From NCBI RefSeq assembly GCF_001625215.2, contig NC_030384.2, forward strand, positions 43,124,390 through 43,188,389: a stretch of 64,000 bases of DNA, written 5' to 3'. The stretch is from Daucus carota subsp. sativus (Eukaryota; Streptophyta; Magnoliopsida; Apiales; Apiaceae). Position numbers and translations under genes: made by a program. A model generated the notes under the pieces. That model saw only the letters and a list, made by a program, of their open reading frames with translations, searched no databases and was not told where the DNA came from. Numbering within the stretch: the stretch's first letter is position 1; the number at the start of each line of letters is the position of its first letter. Of the stretch, positions 16,675 to 23,832 are shown piece by piece.

Positions 16675-17684
16675 ATGCGTGCTAAGGTACTCTCATCGAT
16701 CTTATTCTGATTGTGTTTATGTATGTTTGTGTTTTGTTTATGCGTATGTTATGTAAATCCACACTTGTTTCTTCATGATGCTGGTGGCTGTGTTGTAGAA
16801 TCATAGTCACGCTTTTCTTATGAGCATGAGCTTGTTTGATATGTTTTAGGTTCTATAATGACGATGTTAGATATGCGTTTAGCCTAATCTGGTTCTCGTA
16901 TATCTTAATTATCATTTGATTTTCGTATATTTGAAAGCTGATGACTTGCAAATTGTTTTGTTTGTTCTTGTTATTTATAATATTGTTTGTTTACGTCTGT
17001 AATCACTGTTGTTTTTAACTTGACAATTTATATTGAAACTGGGGTGAATAATATATGTTCACAAAGCCCAACATGAATTGTCATAAATCAAGCCCTTGTT
17101 TGATGGATGGTTGAGCTTTCTTTGACCCTTAGGGGTTGAGGATGGTTCCCGATTGTCGAATTAAGGGCGTTGTCATATCCTGTCGCCTTGTGGAGCGGAT
17201 TTCGCTATTACCTCTTGGGACTGGCCATGAGAAAAACATTTATATATTTCACAATGTATGCTCATGTGTTTGTGTGTGGATTGTATTTGGTCTGTTTTAA
17301 AGAATTGTACTTGTTATTTATGTTTATGGATGAATTGTTGACAATTAACAATGGAAATGGGGTGAACTAAATATGTTTGCAAAACCCAAAGTTAATTGTC
17401 GTAGATCAAGCCCTTTGATTGTTTGCAGTTGAGCCTTTCGGCTTGTGAGTTGAGAGGTTCCTGCTTGGCAAAGGGCGTTGTCATATCCTGTCGCCTTGGG
17501 GAGCAGTATCTGCCATTACCTCTTGGGACTGGCCATGAGAAAAACATTTTTTTATATATTACAGTTTTGATTCTTTGTTCTTTGTATTAGTGTTCTGATT
17601 AATGTATTTGTATTGCAGTGGAAGAAGAAGCGGATGAGGAGATTGAAAAGGAAGCGCCGAAAGATGAGACAGAGATCTAAGTAG
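16675..17684 (+). CDS. RPL41: 60S ribosomal protein eL41 (copy A)
   Basis: Two exons: 16675-16686 (ATG CGT GCT AAG) and 17619-17684, joined in phase 0, giving the complete 25-residue eL41 with the usual start [12 protein letters not shown] and end MRQRSK. eL41 is the smallest ribosomal protein, nearly all Lys/Arg, and sits at the subunit interface bridge. Both splice sites are canonical (AAG-GTACTC; TTGCAG-TGG). The intron is about 930 bases and contains two copies of the conserved RNA-like element described separately. The start is fixed by the invariant MRAK. The translated product is identical to copy B; only silent changes are seen (AAA versus AAG in the LKRKR segment). Too short for most ORF finders, so it is easily missed. 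Confidence 0.96.
17041..17248 (+). ncRNA. Intronic structured RNA element A1 (H/ACA-like snoRNA candidate)
   Basis: About 205 bases lying within the RPL41 copy A intron, from GGGGTGAATAATATATG to the ACA-like end GAGAAAAACATTT. It is one of four related units (A1, A2, B1, B2). The 3' half is best conserved: GGGCGTTGTCATATCCTGTC through TTGGGACTGGCCATGAG. It can fold into a hairpin with TCAT paired to ATGA at the base and AGCG-GATTT-CGCT at the tip. An ACA triplet three bases before the presumed 3' end fits H/ACA snoRNAs; a clean H box was not found, so the class is not certain. Host genes for ribosomal proteins commonly carry snoRNAs in introns. Confidence 0.55.
17359..17551 (+). ncRNA. Intronic structured RNA element A2 (H/ACA-like snoRNA candidate)
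   Basis: Second unit in the same intron, starting GGGGTGAACTAAATATG and ending GAGAAAAACATTT. It shares the 3' hairpin with A1 but the tip is GCAG-TAT-CTGC, so one G-C pair of A1 is an A-T pair here and a G-T pair of A1 is G-C. A separate upstream hairpin, AGCC-TTTC-GGCT, lies in its 5' half, flanked by TTTGC and GCAAA that can pair. This gives a two-hairpin arrangement. Confidence 0.55.
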
Positions 17685-18232
17685 ACGGTTTGCAAAAATA
17701 ATTAGATTGCTTCTTTCGAGCCTGCATCTTCATATTCACTATGTTGGGCTCTGCTAGGGGGAGTTTTCTGATATTGCTAGCAAGTGATTCAGCTTTTGGT
17801 TTTCTTGTTTCTAGAATGAACTTCTGTTTAGTTTGGTTATCGTACTATAATTTTGAAAGGATTATGAACTTGGCTGTAAGGAATGATCTTTTTAATTATC
17901 TGATATTGTTTTATGAATCTATATTTTCGGCATTGTTAGTGCTCTGAGATGGAGGAAAAATTTACTCCCCCAATGATCTTGTTAATTCCGCTAGTATAAT
18001 CATTGGGCTCTGAAGTCTGACCATCGTTCTCTTTCAACATCTTATGTTTTGCTTGGTAGTGAACGAGGTATCATATTCAGGGTTTTGTTCGACTGTTGGA
18101 TGGCCTTACAATTGGTTTTACTAATTTGTTTATTAGGTTTTTGGTAGGTGAATATACTACTAACAATTGTCTAATTTGGTTCCTATCATTCATAATACTC
18201 TGTAGTTCTCTCTGAGAAATATAAACTTAATA

Positions 18233-18519
18233 CTCCCTCTCCTTCCGTCTCACCTATTTCTTTACACTTTCCTTTCTGAGGTGTCCCACCCAATTCTTTA
18301 CATTTCAAAACTTACCAAAAATAGTCAATGGGTTCCACCACTTCTCCACTTTTCTTTATTTTTCACATTAGTTTTACTCCACTATCTTCTTTTTATACAT
18401 TAAAAATCAATGGGTCCCACCACTTTACCCATTTTTCTTCCTCTTTTCCACTATTTTATACATATTCCTTAACCTCCGTGCCCAACCCATTTGATAAGAA
18501 ATGGGTGGGACGGAGGGAG
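18233..18519. mobile_element. Stowaway MITE (in duplication copy A only)
   Basis: Left end CTCCCTCTCCTTCCGTCTCA, right end GGTGGGACGGAGGGAG; TA target duplications at 18231-18232 and 18520-18521. Copy B has a single TA at the same place (CTTAGTAGCTTATTTTG near 24363), a clean empty site. Non-coding, 287 bases. Confidence 0.92.
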
Positions 18520-18584
18520 TAGTTTATTTTGTTCCAAAATTCTGGAAACCCTGTTTTCCTTAATTGAAAATTGTGGAGCACTTA

Positions 18585-19048
18585 GAGGGGTGTATTGGAT
18601 TGAGATTTTAAAGCTTTTTTTTGCATTGATGAAATCCGAGGGTATTCGATTGGGATTGTTTGAAATCCATTAAAATCTTGAGGTATTCAATTGGGATTTC
18701 AAATTATGCTACAAAATCTGGTGGTATTCAATTGGGATTTTAAATTATGCTTTAAAATCCGATGGTATTCAATTGGGATTGTTTAAAATCCATTAAAATC
18801 TGATGGTATTCAAATGCTGATGGATTTTTTTGCATTTCATAAAATGATGGATTTTGTGGCATTCTTCAGTGTATTTTAAGTTTTTTGAAATCCCATCAAA
18901 ATCAATGGGATTTTGAAGCATTGTGCTTAAATCCTATCAACTCTGCGACATTTTATCAAGAATCCGCACAAAATCAAAATCAGACACAATCCATTAAAAT
19001 TCATAAACTAAAAACAATCCATTAAAATCTCAATCGAATACAACCCTC
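18585..19048. mobile_element. Tourist/PIF-like MITE (in duplication copy A only)
   Basis: Inverted ends GAGGGGTGTATTGGATTGAG and, reverse complemented, GAGGGTTGTATTCGATTGAG, with TTA target duplications at 18582-18584 and 19049-19051. TTA is the PIF/Harbinger target. The interior repeats the word GGTATTCAATTGGGATT several times. Copy B lacks the element (TGGAGCAATAATTTCAGAG near 24421). Confidence 0.9.
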
Positions 19049-22198: not shown

Positions 22199-22649
22199 TT
22201 ATACTATAATTTTATTATACTATAACATATATATATTTTTAATTTGAATCAAGTAACATCCGTTAAATATTTTTTTTTGTAAGGAAGTAACATCCGTTAA
22301 ATATTACTTGAGTATAACATCAACAATTAAATATTAATTGTTTAGGGAAAAAGTTAATATTAAAGGTCATTTTATTTTACAATAGTCGACAAATCCAAAC
22401 ACGGGAAAAAAATATAGTCTTGACATGATATTGATGGTTGATATCAATGAATTAACTATTAGTGATGTATGTTTGTTGATTATTCTTTTATAATATTTGT
22501 TTTGTTCATCAGACATGTTTATTGTTGTTAATTTTTATATGATTTACTTTGTATAGAGGAAAAAATTATTCATGCATTATCTATTTGCACCTCTATAGAC
22601 TATAGCCCCACACACGTGAACTATCACAACACACAGCGGACTGAAATAT

Positions 22650-22720
22650 GATAGGTAAAGGCCCAAAGTCACACTAGAAGCCCATAAAAGCCCAAAGAAA
22701 TTAGGGTTATGACATAGGTA
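22650..22720 (+). promoter_or_regulatory. RPL41 copy B promoter: site II and telo-box elements
   Basis: Contains GGCCCA (22660-22665), AAGCCCA (22678-22684) and TTAGGGTTA (22701-22709) with the same order and spacing as in copy A, so both promoters are likely active in growing tissue as for other ribosomal protein genes. Confidence 0.7.
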
Positions 22721-22819
22721 GAGAGCCGTATGAGTACTAAACCACAACATCGTTTGTAGAACGGCCGGGAGTTATACAAGACCCAGAGCATAGAGAGCTA
22801 AGACAGAAGTTCCTTCGAG

Positions 22820-23832
22820 ATGCGTGCTAAGGTATCCTCATTGATCTTATTCTGATTGTGTTTATGTATGTTTGTGTTTTATTTATGCGTATGTTATGTA
22901 AATCCGAACTTGTTTCTTCATGATGCTGGTGGCTGTGTTATAGAATCATAGTCACGTTTTTCTTATGAACATCAGCTTGTTTGATATGTCTTGGGTTGTG
23001 TAATGACGATGTTAGATATGCGTTTAGCCTAATTTAGTTCTCGTATATCTTAATTACCATTTGATTTTTGTATATTTGAAAGCTGATGACTTGCAAATTG
23101 TTGTGTTTGTTCTTGTTATATATAATATTGTTTGTTTACGTCTGTAATTACTGTTGTTTTGAACTTGACAATTTATATTGAAATTGGGGTGAATAATATA
23201 TGTTCACAAAGCCCAACATGAATTGGCATAAATCAAGCCCTTGTTTGATGAATGGTTGAGCTTCTTTGATCTTTAGGGGTTCAGGATGGTTCCTGATTGT
23301 TGAATTAAGGGCGTTGTCATATCCTGTCGCCTTGGGGAGCGGATTTCGCTATCACCTCTTGGGACTGGCCATGAGAAAAACATTTTTATATTTAACAAAT
23401 ATATGCTTATGTGTTCATGTGTGGTTTTTTTGGGTTTGTTTTAAAGAATTATACTTGTTTGTCATGTTTATGGATGAATTCTTGACAATTAACAATGCAA
23501 ATGGGGGGCACTAACTATGTTTGCAAAACCCAAAATTAATTGTAGTATATCAAGCCCTTTTGATTGTTTGCAGTTGAGCCTTTCAACTCTTGTGAGTTGT
23601 GAGGCTCCTGCTTGGCAAAGGGCGGCGTCGTATCCTGTCGCCTTGGGGAGCAGTATCTGCCATTACCTCTTGGGACTGGCCATGAGAAAAACATTTATTC
23701 TTATGTTACAATTTTGATTCTTTTTTCTTTGTATTATTATGCTGATTAATGTTTTTTGTATTGCAGTGGAAGAAGAAGCGGATGAGGAGATTGAAGAGGA
23801 AGCGCCGAAAGATGAGACAGAGATCTAAGTAG
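22820..23832 (+). CDS. RPL41: 60S ribosomal protein eL41 (copy B)
   Basis: Two exons: 22820-22831 and 23767-23832, phase 0 junction, 25-residue product identical to copy A. The gene arose with the tandem duplication. Intron length is about 935 bases and holds two more copies of the RNA-like element. The promoter, exon 1 context (GAGATGCGTGCTAAGGT) and exon 2 are nearly unchanged from copy A, so both copies look functional. eL41 forms an intersubunit bridge of the 80S ribosome and is the smallest ribosomal protein. Confidence 0.96.
23186..23395 (+). ncRNA. Intronic structured RNA element B1 (H/ACA-like snoRNA candidate)
   Basis: Orthologous in position to A1, starting GGGGTGAATAATATATG and ending GAGAAAAACATTTTT. 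The 3' hairpin tip is the same as A1 (AGCG-GATTT-CGCT). Differences from A1 fall mostly outside the conserved 3' hairpin. Confidence 0.55.
23502..23698 (+). ncRNA. Intronic structured RNA element B2 (H/ACA-like snoRNA candidate)
   Basis: Orthologous in position to A2. It keeps the type-2 hairpin tip GCAG-TAT-CTGC and the ACA-like end GAGAAAAACATTT. The 5' hairpin differs from A2 (AGCCTTTCAACTCTTGTGAG in place of the AGCC-TTTC-GGCT tip), so the 5' half may be less constrained. Confidence 0.5.

Follow-up and report, generated by a model that had tools for sequence, protein, structure and literature searches.

The window, a stretch of 64,000 nucleotides of the carrot genome (Daucus carota subsp. 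sativus), carries two neighbouring gene copies whose joined exons yield the same 25-residue protein, which we take to be eL41/RPL41. The intron has a length of 932 nt in gene A and 935 nt in gene B and is bounded by GT and AG in both. Comparison of the units within these introns bore out the initial annotation, which had placed four related elements in the two RPL41 introns; their location stands, and their ends were corrected, the refined starts lying 20–21 nt and the refined ends 2–10 nt earlier. The refined units start with TTGACAATT and end with ACATTT; the start was moved upstream because the TTGACAATT stretch pairs with AATTGTC. The genes and units are the following.

16675..17684, forward strand: RPL41 gene A, host of units A1 and A2; coding exon 1 16675–16686, intron 16687–17618, coding exon 2 17619–17684 including the stop codon.
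17020..17241, forward strand: unit A1, 222 nt; 5′ hairpin 17021–17083, H box AAAUCA 17085–17090, internal hairpin 17092–17168, 3′ hairpin 17170–17233 with m1 17175–17183 and m2 17222–17228, ACA 17236–17238, 3′ tail UUU.
17338..17549, forward strand: unit A2, 212 nt; 5′ hairpin 17339–17401, H box AGAUCA 17403–17408, internal hairpin 17410–17476, 3′ hairpin 17478–17541 with m1 17483–17491 and m2 17530–17536, ACA 17544–17546.
22820..23832, forward strand: RPL41 gene B, host of units B1 and B2; coding exon 1 22820–22831, intron 22832–23766, coding exon 2 23767–23832 including the stop codon.
23165..23385, forward strand: unit B1, 221 nt; 5′ hairpin 23166–23228 (one broken pair), H box AAAUCA 23230–23235, internal hairpin 23237–23312, 3′ hairpin 23314–23377 with m1 23319–23327 and m2 23366–23372, ACA 23380–23382.
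23482..23696, forward strand: unit B2, 215 nt; 5′ hairpin 23483–23545 (four broken pairs), H box AUAUCA 23547–23552, internal hairpin 23554–23623, 3′ hairpin 23625–23688 with m1 GUAUCCUGU 23630–23638 and m2 23677–23683, ACA 23691–23693.

All four units feature the same order of parts: a 5′ hairpin, the H box, an internal hairpin, a pocket-bearing 3′ hairpin, and ACA followed by three nucleotides. Over the whole unit, A1 and A2 are 77% and B1 and B2 75% identical, and the 3′ domain reaches 90% and 86%, respectively. The similarity ends at the refined boundaries: identity is 55–60% in the 100 nt upstream and 52–57% in the 65 nt downstream, where shuffled downstream stretches average 53–55%. The surrounding intron has drifted more than the units, as had been noted before.

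The fold was compared with shuffled sequences for two of the four units at their first-approach coordinates, giving z −3.5 with 0 of 200 shuffles as good for 17037–17250 and z −2.8 with 1 of 200 for 23502–23698. When the consensus structure is laid on the four aligned units, 96.3% of the cells are paired, compared with 38–53% when it is slid along the alignment. Two-sided changes occur in 7 cells, whereas shuffled alignments gave 3.3 and none of 500 reached 7; further pair types show no excess (20 versus 19.8; 330 of 500). The 5′ domain is a single hairpin containing a nested hairpin, and the internal hairpin comprises helices 4–6 (alignment columns 73–150), which come after the H box and ahead of the 3′ hairpin. 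The minimum-energy fold of B2 lacks the consensus 5′ hairpin, and in the predicted fold of the free RNA, the CC of m1 is paired with the GG of m2. Sequence and covariation together establish this predicted anatomy of the units.

Box H/ACA snoRNAs carry an H box, ANANNA, in the hinge after the 5′ hairpin and, directly behind the 3′ hairpin, an ACA three nucleotides from the 3′ end, and are bound by Cbf5–Nop10–Gar1–Nhp2. The initial annotation had found no clean H box. The motif ANAUCA does sit at the hinge in all four copies, its N position varying (A, G, A, U); when the hinges were shuffled 20,000 times, ANANNA at a common offset turned up in 11 cases. The motif comes into view once the 5′ hairpin is placed 20–21 nt farther upstream than the earlier start, with the hinge next and an additional internal hairpin after it. 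ACAUUU follows the 3′ hairpin in every unit, where the similarity between units ends, and is the presumed 3′ end. By the structure used, the distance from the top of the pocket to ACA is 14 nt in 4/4 units; PMC7601244 gives 14–16 nt as the rule of the H/ACA family. An intron-encoded RNA of H/ACA type whose presumed 3′ end lies three bases beyond ACA, as proposed earlier, is well supported.

The pocket strands of the 3′ hairpin are AUAUCCUGU (in B2, GUAUCCUGU) and UGGCCAU. They lie at the places of the two U17/snR30 motifs that PMC7601244 lists for 14 species, m1 AUAUUCCU(A/G/U), also given as AUAUUCCUA or AUAUUCCUR in the pocket of the 3′ hairpin, and m2 AAACCAU; from the latter, otherwise invariant motif, the units differ at 3 of 7 letters. 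Two partial 18S copies in the carrot genome contain, in expansion segment ES6, rm1 AUGGGAUA and rm2 UGGCC. The m1 core UAUCCUGU is predicted to pair with rm1 AUGGGAUA and the m2 core GGCCA with rm2 UGGCC, giving 8 + 5 pairs in inverse (5′-with-5′) order, two of the pairs between m1 and rm1 being G–U. Of the 12 core pairs in yeast, 11 are retained despite five letter differences in the snoRNA and three in the rRNA, given an ungapped alignment of m1, which can alternatively be read with a one-letter deletion (AUAU-CCU). Three core pairs are changed on both sides, and one is lost (18S position 841, yeast numbering). Pairing at this level was attained by 71 of 200,000 fully random 12-mers and by 1,012 of 200,000 random five-letter changes of the yeast cores. 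The predicted energy of m2 on carrot rm2 is −9.5 kcal/mol, compared with −2.7 for yeast m2 on the same rm2; the difference is small for m1 (−7.3 versus −5.9). Judged by these energies, the fit to the rRNA is species-specific for m2. Folded by itself, the rRNA stretch that separates rm1 from rm2 forms a single hairpin, like the described snR30-bound ES6. At this named site, 154 of 20,000 shuffled A2 pockets attain an equally good pairing.

U17/snR30 is a small RNA for making the small ribosomal subunit in yeast and animals and is required for the early pre-18S cleavages (A0/A1/A2). It was reported as not identified in Arabidopsis, and no plant member was found in the literature searched. Because of their layout and pocket sequences, the units are very likely plant U17/snR30, arranged in tandem within RPL41 introns; on sequence evidence from one genome, we put at roughly 0.8 the probability that they are box H/ACA snoRNAs of the U17/snR30 type, each produced from the excised intron. 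Of the earlier interpretation, the H/ACA type is retained, and the non-canonical snoRNA or other intronic RNA gives way to U17/snR30, which layout and pocket indicate.

A canonical guide pairs through the distal strands of its pocket with the target sequences that immediately flank a UN. The units could be of this kind and pseudouridylate a UU in ES6 without a U17-like processing role, since in 4/4 copies the distal strands AUCCUG and GGCCA flank the UU of 18S 5′-UGGCC-UU-CGGGAU-3′ with 5 + 6 pairs and two free letters. The sum score of this arrangement, taken without a shuffle control, is 27.8, compared with 29.6 for the U17 mode, and two pseudouridines, which may or may not correspond to the flanked UU, have been mapped in Arabidopsis ES6 (PMC8351944). 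However, this arrangement requires G17 of the 3′ domain to give up its upper-stem pair, U57 stays free beside the stem, and the rm1 helix of the U17 mode is longer (8 pairs). The internal hairpin and the overall layout are those of U17, and the m1 and m2 letters match U17 in place, with departures from yeast that parallel those of rm1 and rm2, which makes a pure guide improbable.

Equally improbable is an H/ACA snoRNA with another target, the match to U17 being a coincidence. The target search covered partial 18S, and two-part complementarity to an unnamed 18S place is common by chance: with the site unnamed, 112 of 500 shuffled 18S stretches were as good for the A2 pocket, and 148 of 500 shuffled A2 pockets were as good on the real 525-nt stretch, neither being significant. 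Against this stand the three-hairpin layout, the m1- and m2-like letters in place, the 14-nt spacing, and the three two-sided changes with rm1 and rm2.

Two further RPL41 genes, L007 and L008, lie on C5 and C7, and neither matches the 3′-domain model of the units. In the 828-nt intron of L007, the A2 5′ hairpin aligns with a score of 19 (0 of 500 shuffles as good), the 5′ hairpins of the other three copies less so (21, 103, and 47 of 500); the 3′ end of the units aligns with 6–10 of 500 shuffles as good, in the right order and with m2 lost. Under alternative scoring, 2 of 300 shuffles were as good for A2 and 79 of 300 for A1. This intron possibly holds a decayed copy and is not counted as evidence. 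Alignment of the 141-nt L008 intron to A1 and A2 found nothing. A structured cis element that controls how RPL41 is spliced or expressed, without ever yielding a stable RNA, would suit the strong structure inside ribosomal-protein gene introns. It is very improbable, given the sharply bounded tandem pair in each intron, the H box and ACA in place, the fit to 18S, and the two RPL41 copies on C5 and C7, which lack the unit by the 3′-domain model, so that RPL41 seemingly does not need it.

A 101-nt DNA query of the 441-Mb genome found at least four places, those listed being the four units in the RPL41 introns, and a mobile element or SINE was rejected. An Rfam search gave no U17/snR30 family match to the units, neither at the Rfam gathering threshold across the whole window nor at E 10 for the A units (17464–17555 and 16600–17700). 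This is taken to reflect how insensitive models derived from described members are, an Rfam match not being regarded as a defining trait of the family; weak Rfam matches to miRNA, coronavirus-UTR, CRISPR, and C/D families were far below gathering scores and were rejected. The pattern m1..m2..ACA gave 11 matches genome-wide and its reversed control none. Three are A1, A2, and B1, B2 being left out because it carries GTATCC; the other eight, at seven places, fail the 3′-domain model R1, as does an 18-mer match in one viral contig. A stricter pattern found nothing in the genome and viral contigs. On the window, R1 finds the four units from which it was built, and a match at 30451–30486 (14.1 bits, E 0.044) skips 46 model positions and is taken as chance. 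A second, animal-type U17 locus (ATATTCCT..AAACCAT..ACA) may exist elsewhere in the genome. Separately, a Pfam Fcf1 search for Utp23 gave two loci: for L028, one segment has its match in FCF1/Utp24 (E 1.4e-16), and a piece of L027, behind unrelated proteins, matches UTP23 weakly (E 0.49).

As a U17/snR30, and by analogy with the known family, each unit would be bound at its hairpins by the H/ACA proteins, with the intron trimmed down to the snoRNA ends. The basal pocket strands m1 and m2 would then pair with rm1 and rm2 of pre-18S ES6, the 5′ strand with the 5′ site, in the order described in yeast and animals. During the early pre-18S cleavages and the folding of the platform, this pairing would keep ES6 from adopting its mature fold, rm1 and rm2 being separated by a newly formed hairpin; the unit RNA would not pseudouridylate ES6. 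A combined reading is unlikely: plants have U17/snR30, overlooked in RPL41 introns, and in this lineage its pocket may also guide modification of the UU next to rm2 productively, which would make one RNA serve both processing and modification. It would have been missed because m1 and m2 co-evolved with a plant-specific ES6 and because of its RPL41-intron location, by which one transcript would supply a ribosomal protein and an RNA for 18S maturation.

If the units are U17, the gap of the missing plant U17/snR30 closes, the ES6 chaperone mechanism extends to plants, and the changes between m1/m2 and rm1/rm2 amount to a natural compensatory-mutation test. Annotators of plant genomes gain a profile to search with and, in RPL41, a host gene to inspect.

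Canonical pseudouridine-guide H/ACA snoRNAs share with the units the H and ACA boxes, the pocket, and the ACA spacing; the units have in addition the internal hairpin. The closest likeness is to snR30/U17 (SNORA73/E1) of yeast, animals, and Tetrahymena as described in PMC7601244: a 5′ domain, H box, internal hairpin, 3′ pocket hairpin, and ACA, the 14-nt pocket spacing, the places of m1 and m2 in the pocket, and the predicted pairing, in unchanged order, with rm1 and rm2 of 18S ES6. The units, with 212–222 nt, are close to human U17 (207 nt in that source), and their 3′ domain, better conserved than the rest, also agrees with that source. The units differ from snR30/U17 as follows: m1 AUAUCCUGU and m2 UGGCCAU, changes largely matched in 18S; a 5′ domain of one hairpin with a nested hairpin, whereas human U17 has two 5′ stems; and RPL41 as the host gene, with two copies per intron.

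The + strand of the window (G000:C4:43124390–43188389) carries two RPL41 genes, A and B, with a spacing of ~6.1 kb. Each gene consists of two exons encoding a 25-residue protein, identical in both copies, and an intron of 932 nt (A) or 935 nt (B). Each intron features two related units, as the initial annotation had proposed; the unit ends proposed there are corrected here, the 5′ hairpin starting 20–21 nt further upstream.

Units with corrected ends
17020–17241, + strand: unit A1, intron of gene A
17338–17549, + strand: unit A2, intron of gene A
23165–23385, + strand: unit B1, intron of gene B
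23482–23696, + strand: unit B2, intron of gene B

Inside one intron, the two units are 77% (A) and 75% (B) identical, and 90% (A) and 86% (B) over the last 73 columns; their intron flanks reach 52–60%, and shuffles of the downstream flank average 53–55%. Units at matching positions in genes A and B share 95% and 92% identity; for the sequence between them the value is 83%, and for the 3′ part of the intron 84%. The 5′ part, at 93%, is at the level of the units, so that the unit-versus-unit comparison shows the sharp ends best. Judged by these two sets of identities, the pair of units probably predates the RPL41 gene duplication. The tandem duplication covers 16494–18086 and 22654–24217, including promoter, intron, and 3′ flank. 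An additional duplicated flank (19209–19647 and 24638–25077) has a spacing of ~5.43 kb, unlike the ~6.1 kb of the genes; hence, the intervening DNA has changed in length by ~0.7 kb, through gain or loss. Immediately upstream of gene A lies a nested large inverted repeat (15707–16380; 221-nt arms, 80% complementary, and 86-nt arms, 85%), which resembles a foldback or MITE-type element, and immediately downstream a 41-bp repeat of 4.4 copies (18632–18813). Between the genes, 21203–21951 contains a 156-bp tandem repeat (21210–21504, 94% match) and additional diverged copies. An open frame of 567 residues (25353–27056, − strand) has ten stretches matching a pentatricopeptide repeat family (Pfam PPR_2, E 2.6e-107).

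The consensus fold of the four units, derived from RNAalifold and pair counts, features a 5′ hairpin (an 11-pair base stem with a nested hairpin) and a 3′ hairpin, between which stands an internal hairpin with the closing strands GCCCUU/AAGGGC; the individual fold of B2 differs from this consensus. Paired cells amount to 96.3%, compared with 38–53% in slid versions. Two-sided changes occur in seven cells versus 3.3 after shuffling (0/500 shuffles as high) and, less strikingly, in five pairs versus 3.0 (28/500), while the number of additional pair types is unremarkable (330/500). This covariation supports the fold—short of proof for each helix, because the consensus derives from the same four related sequences on which it is scored. 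The initial annotation had reported no clean H box; a common box, ANAUCA, is present at the hinge of all four units, and shuffled hinges yield one in 11 of 20,000 cases. It was probably overlooked because the 5′ hairpin begins 20–21 nt upstream of the start assumed there and because the internal hairpin stands between the H box and the 3′ hairpin. The predicted pocket of the 3′ hairpin measures 5+5 nt, provided that the predicted CC/GG pairs inside are opened. Its top lies 14 nt from the ACA in all four units, and UUU directly follows the ACA, where similarity between units stops.

A 171-nt 18S stretch, used as the single query, retrieved two places in the same genome, both containing GCAUGGGAUAAC and GUUGGCC.

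Partial 18S copies
G000:C5:18497069–18497190: partial 18S L014
G000:C3:218052–218221: partial 18S L013

Full 18S units may be absent from the assembly; an SSU (Rfam) match is absent at two 5.8S loci. The pocket strands have the potential to pair with this 18S: m1 UAUCCUGU with AUGGGAUA (eight pairs, two of them G-U) and m2 GGCCA with UGGCC (five pairs). A two-part match at an unnamed site is ordinary: 112/500 shuffled 18S stretches reach the A2-pocket level somewhere, as do 148 of 500 shuffled A2 pockets in the 18S stretch. At the named ES6 site, the A2 pocket pairing is equaled by 154 of 20,000 shuffled A2 pockets. The assignment to U17/snR30 thus rests on several features occurring jointly in the sequence: layout, box positions, spacing, m1/m2-like letters in place, and fit to the one known site of the family. 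The main rival, revealed by the same pairing search, is that the pocket acts as a canonical guide at 18S UGGCC-UU-CGGGAU; two pseudouridines have been mapped within ES6 at large in Arabidopsis (as excerpted from PMC8351944). Such guide action could possibly be a second function of the units. The analysis shows sequence, covarying structure, boxes, spacing, and pairing potential; as a plant U17/snR30, the units would in addition be released from the RPL41 intron, be bound by H/ACA proteins, pair with ES6 in vivo, and take part in the early cleavages of pre-18S and the folding of the platform.

A 101-nt query of the 441-Mb genome (11 contigs), whose gene and rRNA content point to a flowering plant, found no copies beyond the four units, and R1, a 3′-domain model built from them, detected no unit in either the C5 or the C7 RPL41 gene. 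In the 828-nt intron of the C5 gene (L007), positions 159–211 and 739–764 faintly resemble the unit's 5′ hairpin and 3′ end, in colinear order; m2 is missing there, and the intron may hold a decayed copy. Among the matches listed in open-licence PMC literature, mostly titles and abstract starts, neither a plant snR30/U17 nor an RPL41-hosted plant snoRNA occurs, and the terms U17 and snR30 are absent from a 2026 plant pre-rRNA review (PMC13030585). The units may already be described in a subscription journal or a database.

According to the excerpted text of PMC7601244, snR30/U17 RNAs share a layout of 5′ domain, internal hairpin, and conserved 3′ hairpin with a pocket, and the family's m1 AUAUUCCU(A/G/U) and m2 AAACCAU are given for 14 listed species, none of them plants. 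At these places, the units carry AUAUCCUGU (GUAUCCUGU in B2) and UGGCCAU, respectively. Compared with yeast at positions 801–806 and 836–841 (yeast letters from primers in the excerpt of PMC9176245), 11/12 core pairs are retained, with both-sided changes at 803, 839, and 840; the G-C pair at 801 is G-U here, and the pair at 841 is lost. On this 18S, the plant m2 reaches −9.5 kcal/mol versus −2.7 for yeast m2, and the plant m1 gains little (−7.3 versus −5.9 kcal/mol). The rRNA between the two 18S sites is predicted to fold into one hairpin, and a single hairpin between the sites is likewise described for snR30-bound ES6 (PMC7601244; reported in PMC12095548; both as excerpted).
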